From NCBI RefSeq assembly GCF_000378505.1, contig NZ_KB899991.1, positions 182,824 to 246,823 on the forward strand: a DNA stretch of 64,000 nt, written 5' to 3'. Origin of the DNA: Modicisalibacter luteus DSM 23508 (GTDB lineage: Bacteria; Pseudomonadota; Gammaproteobacteria; Pseudomonadales; Halomonadaceae). Position numbers and translations under genes: made by a program. Position 1 is the stretch's first letter; each line of letters starts with the position of its first letter. Shown here piece by piece: positions 21,140 through 24,692 of the stretch. The notes under the pieces were generated by a model. That model saw only the letters and a program-made list of their open reading frames with translations, was not told the DNA's origin and did no database searches.

Positions 21140-21928
21140 TTAGCTTGGACGCTGGGCCAGAAACCCGTTGACTGCTGACTGGAACGCCTCCGGCGTTTCG
21201 GAATGCAGCCAATGACCTGCTTCCAGTGTCACTACCTCTGCTTTCGGGAGTACCTGTCGCAAATAGGGTAGCAAGTCGTCGGTCACATAATCGGAACGGG
21301 AACCTCGCAGGACCAGCGTCGGACCACCGAACGCCCCCTCGCCTGCCGGCTCGGCAACGATGTCGGAATACGCGTTCTCGATTTCATCGAGCCCGACACG
21401 CCAGTGCATTACTCCTTCCTCGCCTCGCACCAGATTAGTAGCAAGGAACATTCGTGTCGCCGGTGTTTCTACATGCTCAGCCATCAGGCTATCCGCCTCC
21501 TTGCGTGAGCCTGGTCGCCCTTCTTCGACACGGCGCATGGCAGCGAAAATGCTGTCATGGCCGTGCCGATAAGCCACCGGCGCAATGTCGGCAACAACCA
21601 GAGACGCCAACCGTTCGGGGGCAAAGCGTGCGACACTAATCGCTACCTTGCCGCCCATCGAGTGGCCCAAAAGATCGCAACGTCCGATCCTCAGGGAATC
21701 CAGCAAGGCAATGACATCTTCGGCCATCGAGGCATAATCCATGGCAGATGCGTGGGGAGACCGGCCATGATTACGCAGATCCACGGCGATGACTCGCCGC
21801 TGTTCCTGCCATTGCTTGACATGCGAACGCCAGTTATCGGCACTGCCAAACAGGCCGTGGAGTACGACCAGCGGTAGAGTGTCGTCAGGCCCATTATCCT
21901 GATAGTGCAATGCGAGGGCTTTACTCAT
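21140..21928 (-). CDS. ybfF: Alpha/beta hydrolase, YbfF family esterase
   Basis: A 262-residue alpha/beta hydrolase. The oxyanion region is VVLHGLFGSADNW, the nucleophile elbow is LLGHSMGGKVAI (Ser about 98), and the catalytic His is in LEAGHWLHSETPEAF. This is the YbfF pattern, a thioesterase/esterase of uncertain physiological substrate. CAAGGAGTC precedes the ATG. It follows yhhQ by 12 bp and is likely co-transcribed, hence under the same riboswitch if that blocks transcription. Confidence 0.85.
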   Translation of the reverse strand: MSKALALHYQDNGPDDTLPLVVLHGLFGSADNWRSHVKQWQEQRRVIAVDLRNHGRSPHASAMDYASMAEDVIALLDSLRIGRCDLLGHSMGGKVAISVARFAPERLASLVVADIAPVAYRHGHDSIFAAMRRVEEGRPGSRKEADSLMAEHVETPATRMFLATNLVRGEEGVMHWRVGLDEIENAYSDIVAEPAGEGAFGGPTLVLRGSRSDYVTDDLLPYLRQVLPKAEVVTLEAGHWLHSETPEAFQSAVNGFLAQRPS

Positions 21929-21940
21929 GTCGACTCCTTG

Positions 21941-22606
21941 TCAGATTCCTTCGGGTGATGGCCTGGCGCCCCAGTTCAGCAGGCGGCGAATCAACCAGCC
22001 CAACAATAACCCGTACATAGGCAAGAACAGTAGCAGGGATACCGTCAACTTGATGGCGTAGTCCACCCAGGCAATTTCTACCCAGTGGGTAGCCATGAAG
22101 GCGTCAGGCCCCTGATGGAAGGCAATCGCAAAGAAAGCAAAGGTATCGGCCAGGTTTCCAAATACGGTGGAAACCGCAGGCGCGACCCACCAGTGGGCGT
22201 TGCGGCGGAGGCGATCGAAGACCTGGATATCGAGCAATTGACCGATCACATACGCCATGAAACTGGCCAGCGCGATACGTGCCACGAACAGGTTGAACTC
22301 ACCCAGCGCTGCCAGGCTGCGAAACTCGCCTTTTTCGAACAGTACCGAGACAACATAGGAAATTACCAAGGCAGGCAACATGACCCGAGCGATGATAATG
22401 CGTGCCGACCCCTTGCCGAACAGGCGTACGGTCAAATCAGTGGCCAGGAAGATGAACGGAAAGCTGAACGCTCCCCAGGTAGTGTGCATTCCGAACAGGG
22501 TGAACGGCAGTTGCACCAAGTAGTTACTGGCAGTAATCACCAAGATATGGAACGCTACCAAGGCCATCAGGCAGCGACGATATTGGGTATCGGTCAGCGT
22601 GAGCAT
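21941..22606 (-). CDS. yhhQ: Queuosine precursor transporter YhhQ
   Basis: A 221-residue six-helix membrane protein of the YhhQ/COG1738 family: it starts MLTLTDTQYRRCLMALVAFH, then NYLVQLPFTLFGMHTTWGAF and RIALASFMAYVIGQLLDIQV. Homologues import queuosine precursors preQ0/preQ1. The start at 22606 gives the family's usual length; an in-frame extension to 22720 would translate the leader, which folds as a preQ1-I riboswitch. The ATG is five bases from the GGA of that element. A downstream ybfF gene follows by 12 bp. Confidence 0.9.
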   Translation of the reverse strand: MLTLTDTQYRRCLMALVAFHILVITASNYLVQLPFTLFGMHTTWGAFSFPFIFLATDLTVRLFGKGSARIIIARVMLPALVISYVVSVLFEKGEFRSLAALGEFNLFVARIALASFMAYVIGQLLDIQVFDRLRRNAHWWVAPAVSTVFGNLADTFAFFAIAFHQGPDAFMATHWVEIAWVDYAIKLTVSLLLFLPMYGLLLGWLIRRLLNWGARPSPEGI

Positions 22607-22611
22607 GTGAG

Positions 22612-22647
22612 TCCTTTTTTGGCTTGCGAGGGGTGAGGGAACCCTCG
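22612..22647 (-). promoter_or_regulatory. PreQ1-I riboswitch in the yhhQ leader
   Basis: Read on the minus strand, CGAGGG (22647-22642) pairs perfectly with CCCTCG (22632-22627). The loop is TTCCCTCAC, beginning TTC and ending CAC like known preQ1-I aptamers, with the C at 22633 in the place of the ligand-pairing cytosine. Twelve bases after the stem (CAAGCCAAAAAA) comes GGA, which can pair with TCC of the loop to close an H-type pseudoknot. That spacing matches the B. subtilis and T. tengcongensis aptamers. GGA is also the ribosome binding site, five bases from the yhhQ ATG, so preQ1 binding should block translation. The gene downstream fits. Confidence 0.82.
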
Positions 22648-22718
22648 TGGGATCAAGGAGCTGAAGCGGCGCCGTAGTGTACAGGAAAGCCGGTGCCCCT
22701 GCCCAATCGAGAAATGCC

Positions 22719-22753
22719 AAGGCCCACCAGGATTAAAGCTCATGGTGGGCCTT
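22719..22753 (-). terminator. Terminator downstream of prpE
   Basis: Arms AAGGCCCACCA (22719-22729) and TGGTGGGCCTT (22743-22753), followed on the minus strand by GGCATTTCTC. The stem is strong and the tail weak. It lies between the prpE stop and the yhhQ leader. Confidence 0.68.
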
Positions 22754-22781
22754 CAGTAACGCTCTGGGGACTTCTGTTTGA

Positions 22782-24692
22782 TTAACTTAGGCGAGCCTTA
22801 TGCGCATCGCCGACGTTTCGGTGGACCATGGTTTCTTGTACGTCTTGCAAGCTGGCCGGGTCGTCGATTGTCGAGGGCATGGCAAACTCTTCCCCATCGG
22901 CAATCGTCCGCAATAGCTTGCGCAAGATCTTGCCCGAGCGGGTCTTGGGCAGGCGTGAAACCACCAGCACCTGCTTGAAGGAGGCAACCGCGCCGATCTT
23001 GTCACGAACCAAAGAGACGAGCTCGCGTTCAAGCATGTCGATGTCACCGTCAAAGCCATCCTTGGGGATCACCAGGCCCAGCGGCACTTGCCCCCTCAGA
23101 TCGTCATGGATACCAATGACAGCACACTCGGCAACGGCCGTATGAGAGCCGACGACCTCTTCCATCTCTCCTGTAGAGAGCCGGTGACCAGCAACGTTGA
23201 TAACGTCATCGGTACGTCCCATCACGAACAGATAACCGTCCTGGTCGATATAGCCAGCGTCTCCTGTCAGATAATAGCCGGGAAACGCTGCCATGTAGGC
23301 GCCGTGGAAGCGTTTCGGGGCACGCCAGATCCCTGCCAGGCAGCCCGGTGGCATGGGCTCTTGTATAACTACACTCCCCTGCTCGCCGGGAGCGGCAGGC
23401 TCGCCACTCCTGTCCAGGATCTGGACGTCGAAGCCAGGCACAGGAACAGTTGCCGATCCTGCCTTGACGGGCATGGGATCGAGTCCCTGGAGATTGGCGG
23501 CGATAGGCCATCCCGTCTCTGTCTGCCACCAGTGGTCGATGACTGGCACCTTCAACAGATCATCAAGCCAATGGAAGGTAGGCGGATCGAGACGCTCTCC
23601 GGCCAGGAACAAGGTTCTAAGACAGGAAATATCATAGTTCTTCAACAGTACGCCGTCGGGGTCTTCTTTCTTGATGGCGCGAAAGGCTGTCGGAGCCGTA
23701 AAGAAGGCTTTGACTCGATACTCTGAAATCAGCCGCCAAAAGCTGCCGGCATCCGGTGTCTTTACGGGTTTCCCTTCGTAGATAACTGTGGTGCAGCCAT
23801 ATATCAAAGGGGCATAAACGATATAGGAATGCCCGACGACCCACCCCACGTCCGAGGCAGAGAAAAATACCTCTCCCGGTTTCATGCCATAGATGCGATC
23901 CATGGAGTAGTGCAAGGCAACGGCATGGCCGCCATTGTCACGAACGACCCCTTTGGGTTTGCCGGTAGTACCTGAGGTGTAAAGGATATAAAGCGGGTCG
24001 GTTCCCCGGACGGAAACACAGTCTACCATCTCGGCGGAGCTAACCAGGCCCTGCCAGTCATGATCCCTGTCCCCGAGCTCTGCCCTAGCCTGATCACGCT
24101 GCAGGATGATACACGCCGTCGGCTGATGATGGCTTTGGGCCAGTGCCTGATCCAGGATCGGCTTGTAAGGAAGAATACGGTCGACCTCGATCCCACAAGA
24201 GGCGGCGATCACGACGCGAGGCTCGGCATCATCGATGCGTACTGCCAGTTCATGAGCGGCGAACCCTCCGAAAACCACCGAATGCACGGCTCCCAGTCGA
24301 GCGCAGGCATACATGGCGATCAACGCTTCCGGGACCATGGGCATATAGATGACCACGCGGTCGCCCTTGCCCACACCCAAACTGGCCAGTGCACCGGCAA
24401 ACCTGGCCACGTCGTCGCGCATTTCGCGGTACGTCAGGGTACGACGTTGTCCGGCTACCGGAGAATCCCAGTGAATCGCAGGCTGTTCGCCACGCCCACT
24501 TTCCACATGATGATCCAGCGCCACGTAACATGTATTCATTTCACCGTCGTCGTACCAGCGGGCGTGGTTCTGTTCATCATGGCTAAGTATGGTCTCTGGC
24601 AGCCTAAACCAAGGAATACGCTTAGCCTGCTCTTTCCAGAAAGCGTTAGGTTGCTCGATGGAGCGCTGGTGCTCGGCATGGTACGCGCGCAT
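22782..24692 (-). CDS. prpE: Propionyl-CoA synthetase
   Basis: A 636-residue AMP-forming acyl-CoA synthetase. The AMP-binding P-loop is YILYTSGTTGKPKGVV near residue 240, the substrate/AMP motif is DHWWQTETGWPI near 390, and LTGDAGYIDQDGY follows. The C-terminal LPKTRSGKILRKLL carries the catalytic lysine at about 588. WWQTETG and the overall sequence favour PrpE over acetate-specific Acs. It activates propionate for the methylcitrate cycle. That lysine is the classical target of Pat-type acetyltransferases, one of which is encoded at 2.5-5.3 kb. No prpBCD genes are adjacent. Confidence 0.88.
   Translation of the reverse strand: MRAYHAEHQRSIEQPNAFWKEQAKRIPWFRLPETILSHDEQNHARWYDDGEMNTCYVALDHHVESGRGEQPAIHWDSPVAGQRRTLTYREMRDDVARFAGALASLGVGKGDRVVIYMPMVPEALIAMYACARLGAVHSVVFGGFAAHELAVRIDDAEPRVVIAASCGIEVDRILPYKPILDQALAQSHHQPTACIILQRDQARAELGDRDHDWQGLVSSAEMVDCVSVRGTDPLYILYTSGTTGKPKGVVRDNGGHAVALHYSMDRIYGMKPGEVFFSASDVGWVVGHSYIVYAPLIYGCTTVIYEGKPVKTPDAGSFWRLISEYRVKAFFTAPTAFRAIKKEDPDGVLLKNYDISCLRTLFLAGERLDPPTFHWLDDLLKVPVIDHWWQTETGWPIAANLQGLDPMPVKAGSATVPVPGFDVQILDRSGEPAAPGEQGSVVIQEPMPPGCLAGIWRAPKRFHGAYMAAFPGYYLTGDAGYIDQDGYLFVMGRTDDVINVAGHRLSTGEMEEVVGSHTAVAECAVIGIHDDLRGQVPLGLVIPKDGFDGDIDMLERELVSLVRDKIGAVASFKQVLVVSRLPKTRSGKILRKLLRTIADGEEFAMPSTIDDPASLQDVQETMVHRNVGDAHKARLS

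Follow-up and report, generated by a model that had tools for sequence, protein, structure and literature searches.

A class I type III preQ1 riboswitch very probably lies in the yhhQ leader of a halomonad genome

Our analyses indicate that the 5' leader of yhhQ in the window, the whole 64,000-nucleotide stretch of DNA analyzed, very probably holds a class I type III preQ1 riboswitch, in which preQ1 would repress translation by burying the Shine-Dalgarno sequence. The aptamer is located on the minus strand, a point left unstated in the original prediction, and the leader reads CCCA-CGAGGG-TTCCCTCAC-CCCTCG-CAAGCC-AAAAAA-GGA-CTCAC-ATG. It covers 36 bases (22647-22612), and its GGA is followed by five bases and then by the ATG of yhhQ. 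The 6-bp stem, TTC...CAC loop, 12-base A-rich linker, GGA and five-base spacing described earlier were all present at exactly the coordinates given for them. The P1 stem consists of the 5' strand CGAGGG (22642..22647) paired with the 3' strand CCCUCG (22627..22632), and both strands show compensatory changes in relatives. They enclose the pyrimidine-rich loop UUCCCUCAC (22633..22641), which corresponds to U6 to C14 of E. coli and has the same nine bases as the E. coli leader L044. L3 (22615..22626) is composed of the linker CAAGCC (22626-22621) and a run of six As (22620-22615). The AGG at 22613..22615 is predicted to serve both as the 3' strand of the P2 pseudoknot and as the Shine-Dalgarno core, in the register of the accessible text of PMC10622847; its GG (22614-22613) is followed by A 22612 and sits six bases 5' of the start codon (22606-22604).

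The closest known counterpart is the type III preQ1-I element of E. coli yhhQ, which has been solved by crystal structure and, according to the accessible text of the source, has a KD of 58 nM and confers 6.1-fold repression by preQ1 (PMC10622847). The same text names U6, U7, C8, C9, C10, U11, C12, A13, C14, and C15, gives P2 as U11-A28, C10-G29, and C9-G30, and describes A27 as touching preQ1; for crystallization, a 30-mer was used that had an altered linker and a P1 shorter by one pair (PMC10622847). In our data, the E. coli leader (L044, drawn from a 4.9-Mb E. coli record filed among plasmids) reads ATTGGG-TTCCCTCAC-CCCAAT-GGTTAATC-AAAAAGG, and its linker and 36-nt length agree with the accessible part of the published description (PMC10622847). 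The window element shares with it an identical loop, the three top G-C pairs of P1, the run of As before GG, the Shine-Dalgarno sequence doubling as the predicted P2 strand, and yhhQ as the downstream gene. The two differ in the length from P1 to GG (35 nt in the window, 36 nt in E. coli), in the lower P1 pairs (CGA/TCG versus ATT/AAT), in the linker (CAAGCC versus GGTTAATC), in the number of As (six versus five), and in the base after GG (A versus T). By analogy, the loop would hold U6-U7, the anti-Shine-Dalgarno bases C9-C10-U11, A13, and the specificity base C14, and the last A of the L3 run would pair with U11, following the register in PMC10622847.

Several typical traits of type III were found in the window. 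Its P1 of about 5-6 bp with three top G-C pairs is seen in CGAGGG/CCCTCG, and in TTCCCTCAC the 5' strand is followed by UU and the 3' strand preceded by AC, which the accessible text of PMC11625349 names as a feature of the loop. The four to five conserved As directly 5' of P2, preceded by a variable linker, appear as CAAGCC-AAAAAA-GG, and the element stands before yhhQ with the Shine-Dalgarno sequence as its predicted P2 strand. As far as the accessible texts go, types I and II (Can, Tte, Bsu) have in common with it the H-type pseudoknot, P1, an A-rich L3, and a specificity C adjoining P1, whereas their pseudoknot loops are longer and type I has UC, not AC, before the P1 3' strand (PMC10622847; PMC11625349). 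Type I was rejected for the window copy, which has AC and a 9-nt loop. By comparison, the preQ1-I riboswitch proposed in the original prediction was supported and could be assigned specifically to subtype III, its aptamer core being equal to that of E. coli in the accessible description (PMC10622847).

We infer that the element in the window behaves as its E. coli counterpart does, for which preQ1 binding, structure, and repression have been measured. Transcription would start at a promoter just upstream, and the leader would fold P1. When preQ1 is plentiful, the ligand would sit between P1 and P2, the latter formed by loop CCU and Shine-Dalgarno AGG; with P2 closed, ribosomes could not load and no YhhQ would be made. 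When preQ1 is scarce, the pseudoknot would open and the preQ0/preQ1 importer would be translated. Such repression of yhhQ translation by preQ1 would place the importer under preQ1 feedback. Closure of the ribosome binding site by the ligand, as suggested earlier, is favored by comparison with E. coli type III. A preQ1-I riboswitch acting mainly on transcription, through termination or pausing, would resemble the B. subtilis type II element, which regulates transcription and belongs to a family whose members can induce pausing, according to the accessible text (PMC11625349). However, the five bases between aptamer and ATG leave no room for a terminator and the Shine-Dalgarno GG is itself part of the P2 strand, so translational repression is the best reading, as in E. 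coli, and a mainly transcriptional mode is extremely improbable.

The gene yhhQ (21941..22606, minus strand) codes for a 7-cyano/7-aminomethyl-7-deazaguanine transporter of 221 aa that matched the NCBIfam equivalog NF008406 at 347.7 bits (cut-off 252, E 2.5e-104), TIGR00697 (E 2.3e-57), and Pfam Vut_1, which bears out the target named in the original prediction. A search against solved structures gave no match at E 0.001. The closest named relatives of the protein come from Halomonas sp. McH1-25, Modicisalibacter xianhensis, and others, in line with the earlier description of the genome as halomonad-like. The longest open frame opens at TTG 22720; since homology to NF008406 begins at residue 2 when the ATG is taken as the start, the aptamer is most likely part of the untranslated leader of yhhQ. 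In addition, the genome contains queF, queC, and tgt above their cut-offs (only these three queuosine genes were searched), so that preQ1 is plausibly made and used by the organism.

A ybfF-like alpha/beta hydrolase gene (21140..21928, minus strand; PRK10673 at 1e-56, below its cut-off) lies 12 bases 3' of yhhQ and is possibly co-transcribed with it. The order yhhQ then ybfF was kept in 28 of 30 halomonad loci, and the gap was larger elsewhere (about 180 bases in L006), so coupling is possible in the window and yet is no conserved feature. The earlier caution that ybfF would be affected only if coupled was therefore fair. Upstream of yhhQ lies an acyl-CoA ligase gene on the same strand, and a strong hairpin, AAGGCCCACC...GGTGGGCCTT (22719..22753, minus strand), stands between the two. 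It has no long U run and was not reported by the terminator scan; perhaps it is the terminator of the acyl-CoA ligase gene. A putative -10 box, TACACT (22676..22681, minus strand) within TGTACACT, was found by pattern match, starts 34 bases before the aptamer, and was not reported by the consensus promoter scan. Of 34 leaders, 21 had a box of the form TA[TC]A[ACT]T in the 110 bases upstream, a count taken without a chance control. From these sequences, we infer a promoter just upstream of the aptamer, with a predicted transcription start near 22670.

The match in the window is unlikely to have arisen by chance. The 15-mer GGGTTCCCTCACCCC, allowing up to 2 mismatches, occurred once in the window, as an exact copy; 100 shuffles gave 0.10 occurrences on average, and 10 of the shuffled versions contained one or more. 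A stricter pattern including the A-rich tail was found once in the whole genome, and its reversed form was not found. The covariance model R1, built from 29 leaders judged by record title to lie outside Halomonadaceae, including E. coli and a member (XeTr1) named only as Oceanospirillales, recovered the aptamer as its sole match in the 64 kb, at 28.2 bits and a rough E-value of 1.8e-6. Thermodynamic folding was given no weight because its z-scores were unexceptional (-0.91 for a 55-nt leader, which folds into P1, and +0.48 for an 88-nt leader). In the 88-nt fold, CUCCUU (22655-22660, minus strand), 5' of P1, can pair with AAGGA of the ribosome binding site, and the fold model raises a possible ligand-independent block. 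By eye, this CUCCUU was absent from the nearest relatives, L002 and L003.

The Rfam PreQ1 model, which had been proposed as a check, did not match anywhere in the window when the gathering score was applied, nor in 22400-22800 at E up to 10. It also gave no match, at E up to 10, in nine yhhQ-leader loci used as a control, among them E. coli, Enterobacter, and Aeromonas. The negative result is uninformative because the positive control, the E. coli leader, was missed as well. Rfam RF00522 is listed among the sources for class I consensus models in the accessible text of PMC11625349. The model thus missed every type III leader tried, in the window and at the nine loci, and genomes annotated by Rfam may for this reason seem to be without such leaders.

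Comparison with relatives showed that the aptamer is widely conserved. In a sample of 58 genomes, the source genome included, full-length YhhQ was found in 38 (E at most 6.6e-64), and 34 of these carried the aptamer, including all 14 genus members. Loss of the stem or pseudoknot, which would have spoken against the original prediction, was not seen in the genus. When R1 was run on 45 loci, it matched 35 leaders, namely those of the 34 genomes and that of an uncultured Vibrio isolate (L124); L020 and L026 were matched weakly (E 0.003 and 0.03) and by the stem-loop part only. Four loci with full-length YhhQ (L027, L029, L032, and L037) had no R1 match, and by eye the motif was absent from them. 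A total of 125 loci had a YhhQ match; 11 fell outside the search pattern, and the remainder made up 82 distinct leaders. Among the 11 were four distant COG1738 proteins (L039-L042) and also L124, where the aptamer is otherwise intact and GA replaces GG in the ribosome binding site. Several leaders (L015, L017, L018, L021, L023, and L024) have a strong hairpin within about 45 bases before the aptamer, absent from the window; in several sister-genus leaders it reads GCCACG...CGTGGC or close to it. Four genomes (G005, G013, G015, and G026, with loci L006, L009, L031, and L023) have queF, yhhQ, and the aptamer and no queC above the cut-off. From these sequences, mostly of draft genomes, it may be suggested that genomes lacking queC rely on preQ0 salvage rather than de novo synthesis and that they sense the preQ1 derived from this preQ0. 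In one more genome without queC (G038, 75% complete), yhhQ was not matched.

The pattern of variation within the element was that expected of an aptamer: the lower P1 stem varied and the loop hardly did, although the loop counts are conditional on a search pattern in which TTCCC[CT] was obligatory. Among the 63 leaders whose loop has nine bases, P1 pair 4 occurred as A-T in 28, T-A in 27, C-G in 4, and G-C in 1 and did not pair in 3; pair 2 was G-C in 57 and A-T in 6. In A1, an alignment of 54 sequences, four of the six P1 pairs showed two-sided changes, and the P1 covariation score was 0.206 against a shuffled mean of 0.078, reached by none of 500 shuffles; it was at most 0.089 at every slide. 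Two of five whole-structure measures were not above the shuffles (two-sided pairs, 176 of 500; further pair types, 240 of 500). The four As directly 5' of GG were invariant in A1. The loop CCU and the AGG are complementary, and 98.1% of P2 cells were paired in A1, in which the A-rich tail of L003, L017, and L022 is misplaced by one base, giving three unpaired P2 cells and one G-U. Alignments A3 and A4 were left out because MAFFT misplaced the A-rich tail. P2 was nearly invariant and without covariation; the case for the pseudoknot therefore comes from its conservation and from the E. coli structure. The base after GG was T in 50, A in 27, and C in 5 of the 82 distinct leaders. Being mostly not A, it leaves the third pair of a GGA register not generally kept. 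The pairing of GGA with the loop proposed in the original prediction therefore stood in part: AGG/CCU is widely kept, and the A of GGA, present in 14 of 14 genus leaders, is found in only 27 of 82 overall. Judged from these leaders, the widely conserved register is C9-C10-U11 with A28-G29-G30, as in the accessible description of the E. coli crystal structure (PMC10622847).

These results also bear on whether the leader switches at all. The hairpin and A-rich Shine-Dalgarno sequence could be kept for translation efficiency or mRNA stability with no ligand involved; the A-rich GG run would by itself make a good ribosome binding site, and preQ1 binding at the window copy is argued by analogy. However, within the limits set by the search pattern, the leaders preserve the entire ligand pocket and not the stem alone, and the variable stem and near-constant loop are what an aptamer would be expected to show. 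In all 71 match loci fetched for this check (class scan, 8; family, 29; phylum, 34; some of the genomes having been seen earlier), yhhQ was the next gene, and the matches read one by one that did not precede yhhQ (L139, L140, L262, and L266) each lacked part of the aptamer. A non-switching leader is therefore highly improbable, and a preQ1-sensing riboswitch is the reading we retain. The aptamer pattern fitted 70 of the 71 loci, the remaining one (L231) being cut by the search stretch. Of seven further match loci, five preceded yhhQ, including one located at a contig end, and L262 and L266 did not. Among the matches read, which are a subset of the total, no target gene other than yhhQ was seen.

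Wider scans were performed with R2, a covariance model built from A1 with the window included, on samples of 369 class, 250 family, and 398 phylum genomes. In the class, R2 gave 11 matches at E 0.01, nine of which (E 5.5e-6 or better) were directly before yhhQ; the two weak ones (E 0.0086 and 0.0087) had no aptamer tail and were rejected as aptamers. Equivalog YhhQ was present in 14 of the 369 genomes, and nine of the 14 had the aptamer directly before yhhQ. The other 355 genomes had no R2 match better than E 0.0085. The five YhhQ genomes without an aptamer were G206, G317, G028, G258, and G098. In the first two (loci L143 and L146), yhhQ stands directly 3' of a gene that reads by eye as queF, and its control may have been lost or moved on joining the queF-like gene. 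At E 0.01, 225 of the 250 family genomes matched, including G499, whose match is not counted as an aptamer. That match (L262, G499:C7:195878-195941, E 9.1e-6) has no P1 3' strand, no yhhQ was found in the genome search, and it is read as a relic or chance. Two second matches were likewise set aside: L266 in G633 (E 0.0075) has a stem-loop but no A-rich GG tail, and L265 in G598, at a contig end, repeats that genome's own yhhQ leader and is apparently an assembly duplicate. In the phylum, 50 of 398 genomes matched at E 0.001, all from the same class or nearer.

Some aptamers were missed by R2 and were present when the leaders were read; these had long linkers and belonged to genus g4 (G016, G425, G451, G501, and G516) and genus g20 (G540). 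The 28 halomonad leaders fetched are a non-random sample, nearly all having been taken because R2 missed them or scored them weakly. In g4 (L026, L243, L247, L250, L254, L255, L257, and L258) and g20 (L020, L234-L242, L245, L246, L249, L251, and L253), both sister halomonad genera, the linker from P1 to the polyA strand was 16 to 50 bases long (about 100 in L256) and often able to form a hairpin, compared with 6 bases for the short linker of the window copy. When 24 linkers, related in sequence, were folded alone, fewer than half of 200 mononucleotide shuffles folded as well in 23 cases (range 0 to 127), L254 being the exception. In g4, a seven-pair helix was 94.4% paired in 8 of 11 sequences, with two pairs changing on both sides; its covariation score was reached by 14 of 500 shuffles and its number of two-sided pairs by 72 of 500. 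In g20, RNAalifold on a MAFFT alignment of 14 of the 16 sequences gave no consensus hairpin, which counts against a structured-L3 variant. That the g4 and g20 inserts form a structured-L3 variant of type III, tuning affinity or adding a control layer, is a tentative idea to which we give somewhat less than an even chance. The earlier paper on type III preQ1-I is reportedly that of McCown and co-workers from 2014. It lay outside our literature search, which returned no paper pairing a hairpin insertion with type III preQ1 riboswitches. In the accessible text of the E. coli work, the linker is variable in length and sequence, and the question is raised of how L3 length tunes affinity (PMC10622847); the natural linker variants bear on this question.

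The type, target, and mechanism of the element have already been published for gammaproteobacteria, as the accessible texts indicate (PMC10622847; PMC11625349), and the literature search returned no paper joining a preQ1 riboswitch with Halomonas. The window element looks like an ordinary, well-conserved member of a known riboswitch type. Taken together, our results support feedback control of queuosine-precursor import in Halomonadaceae.
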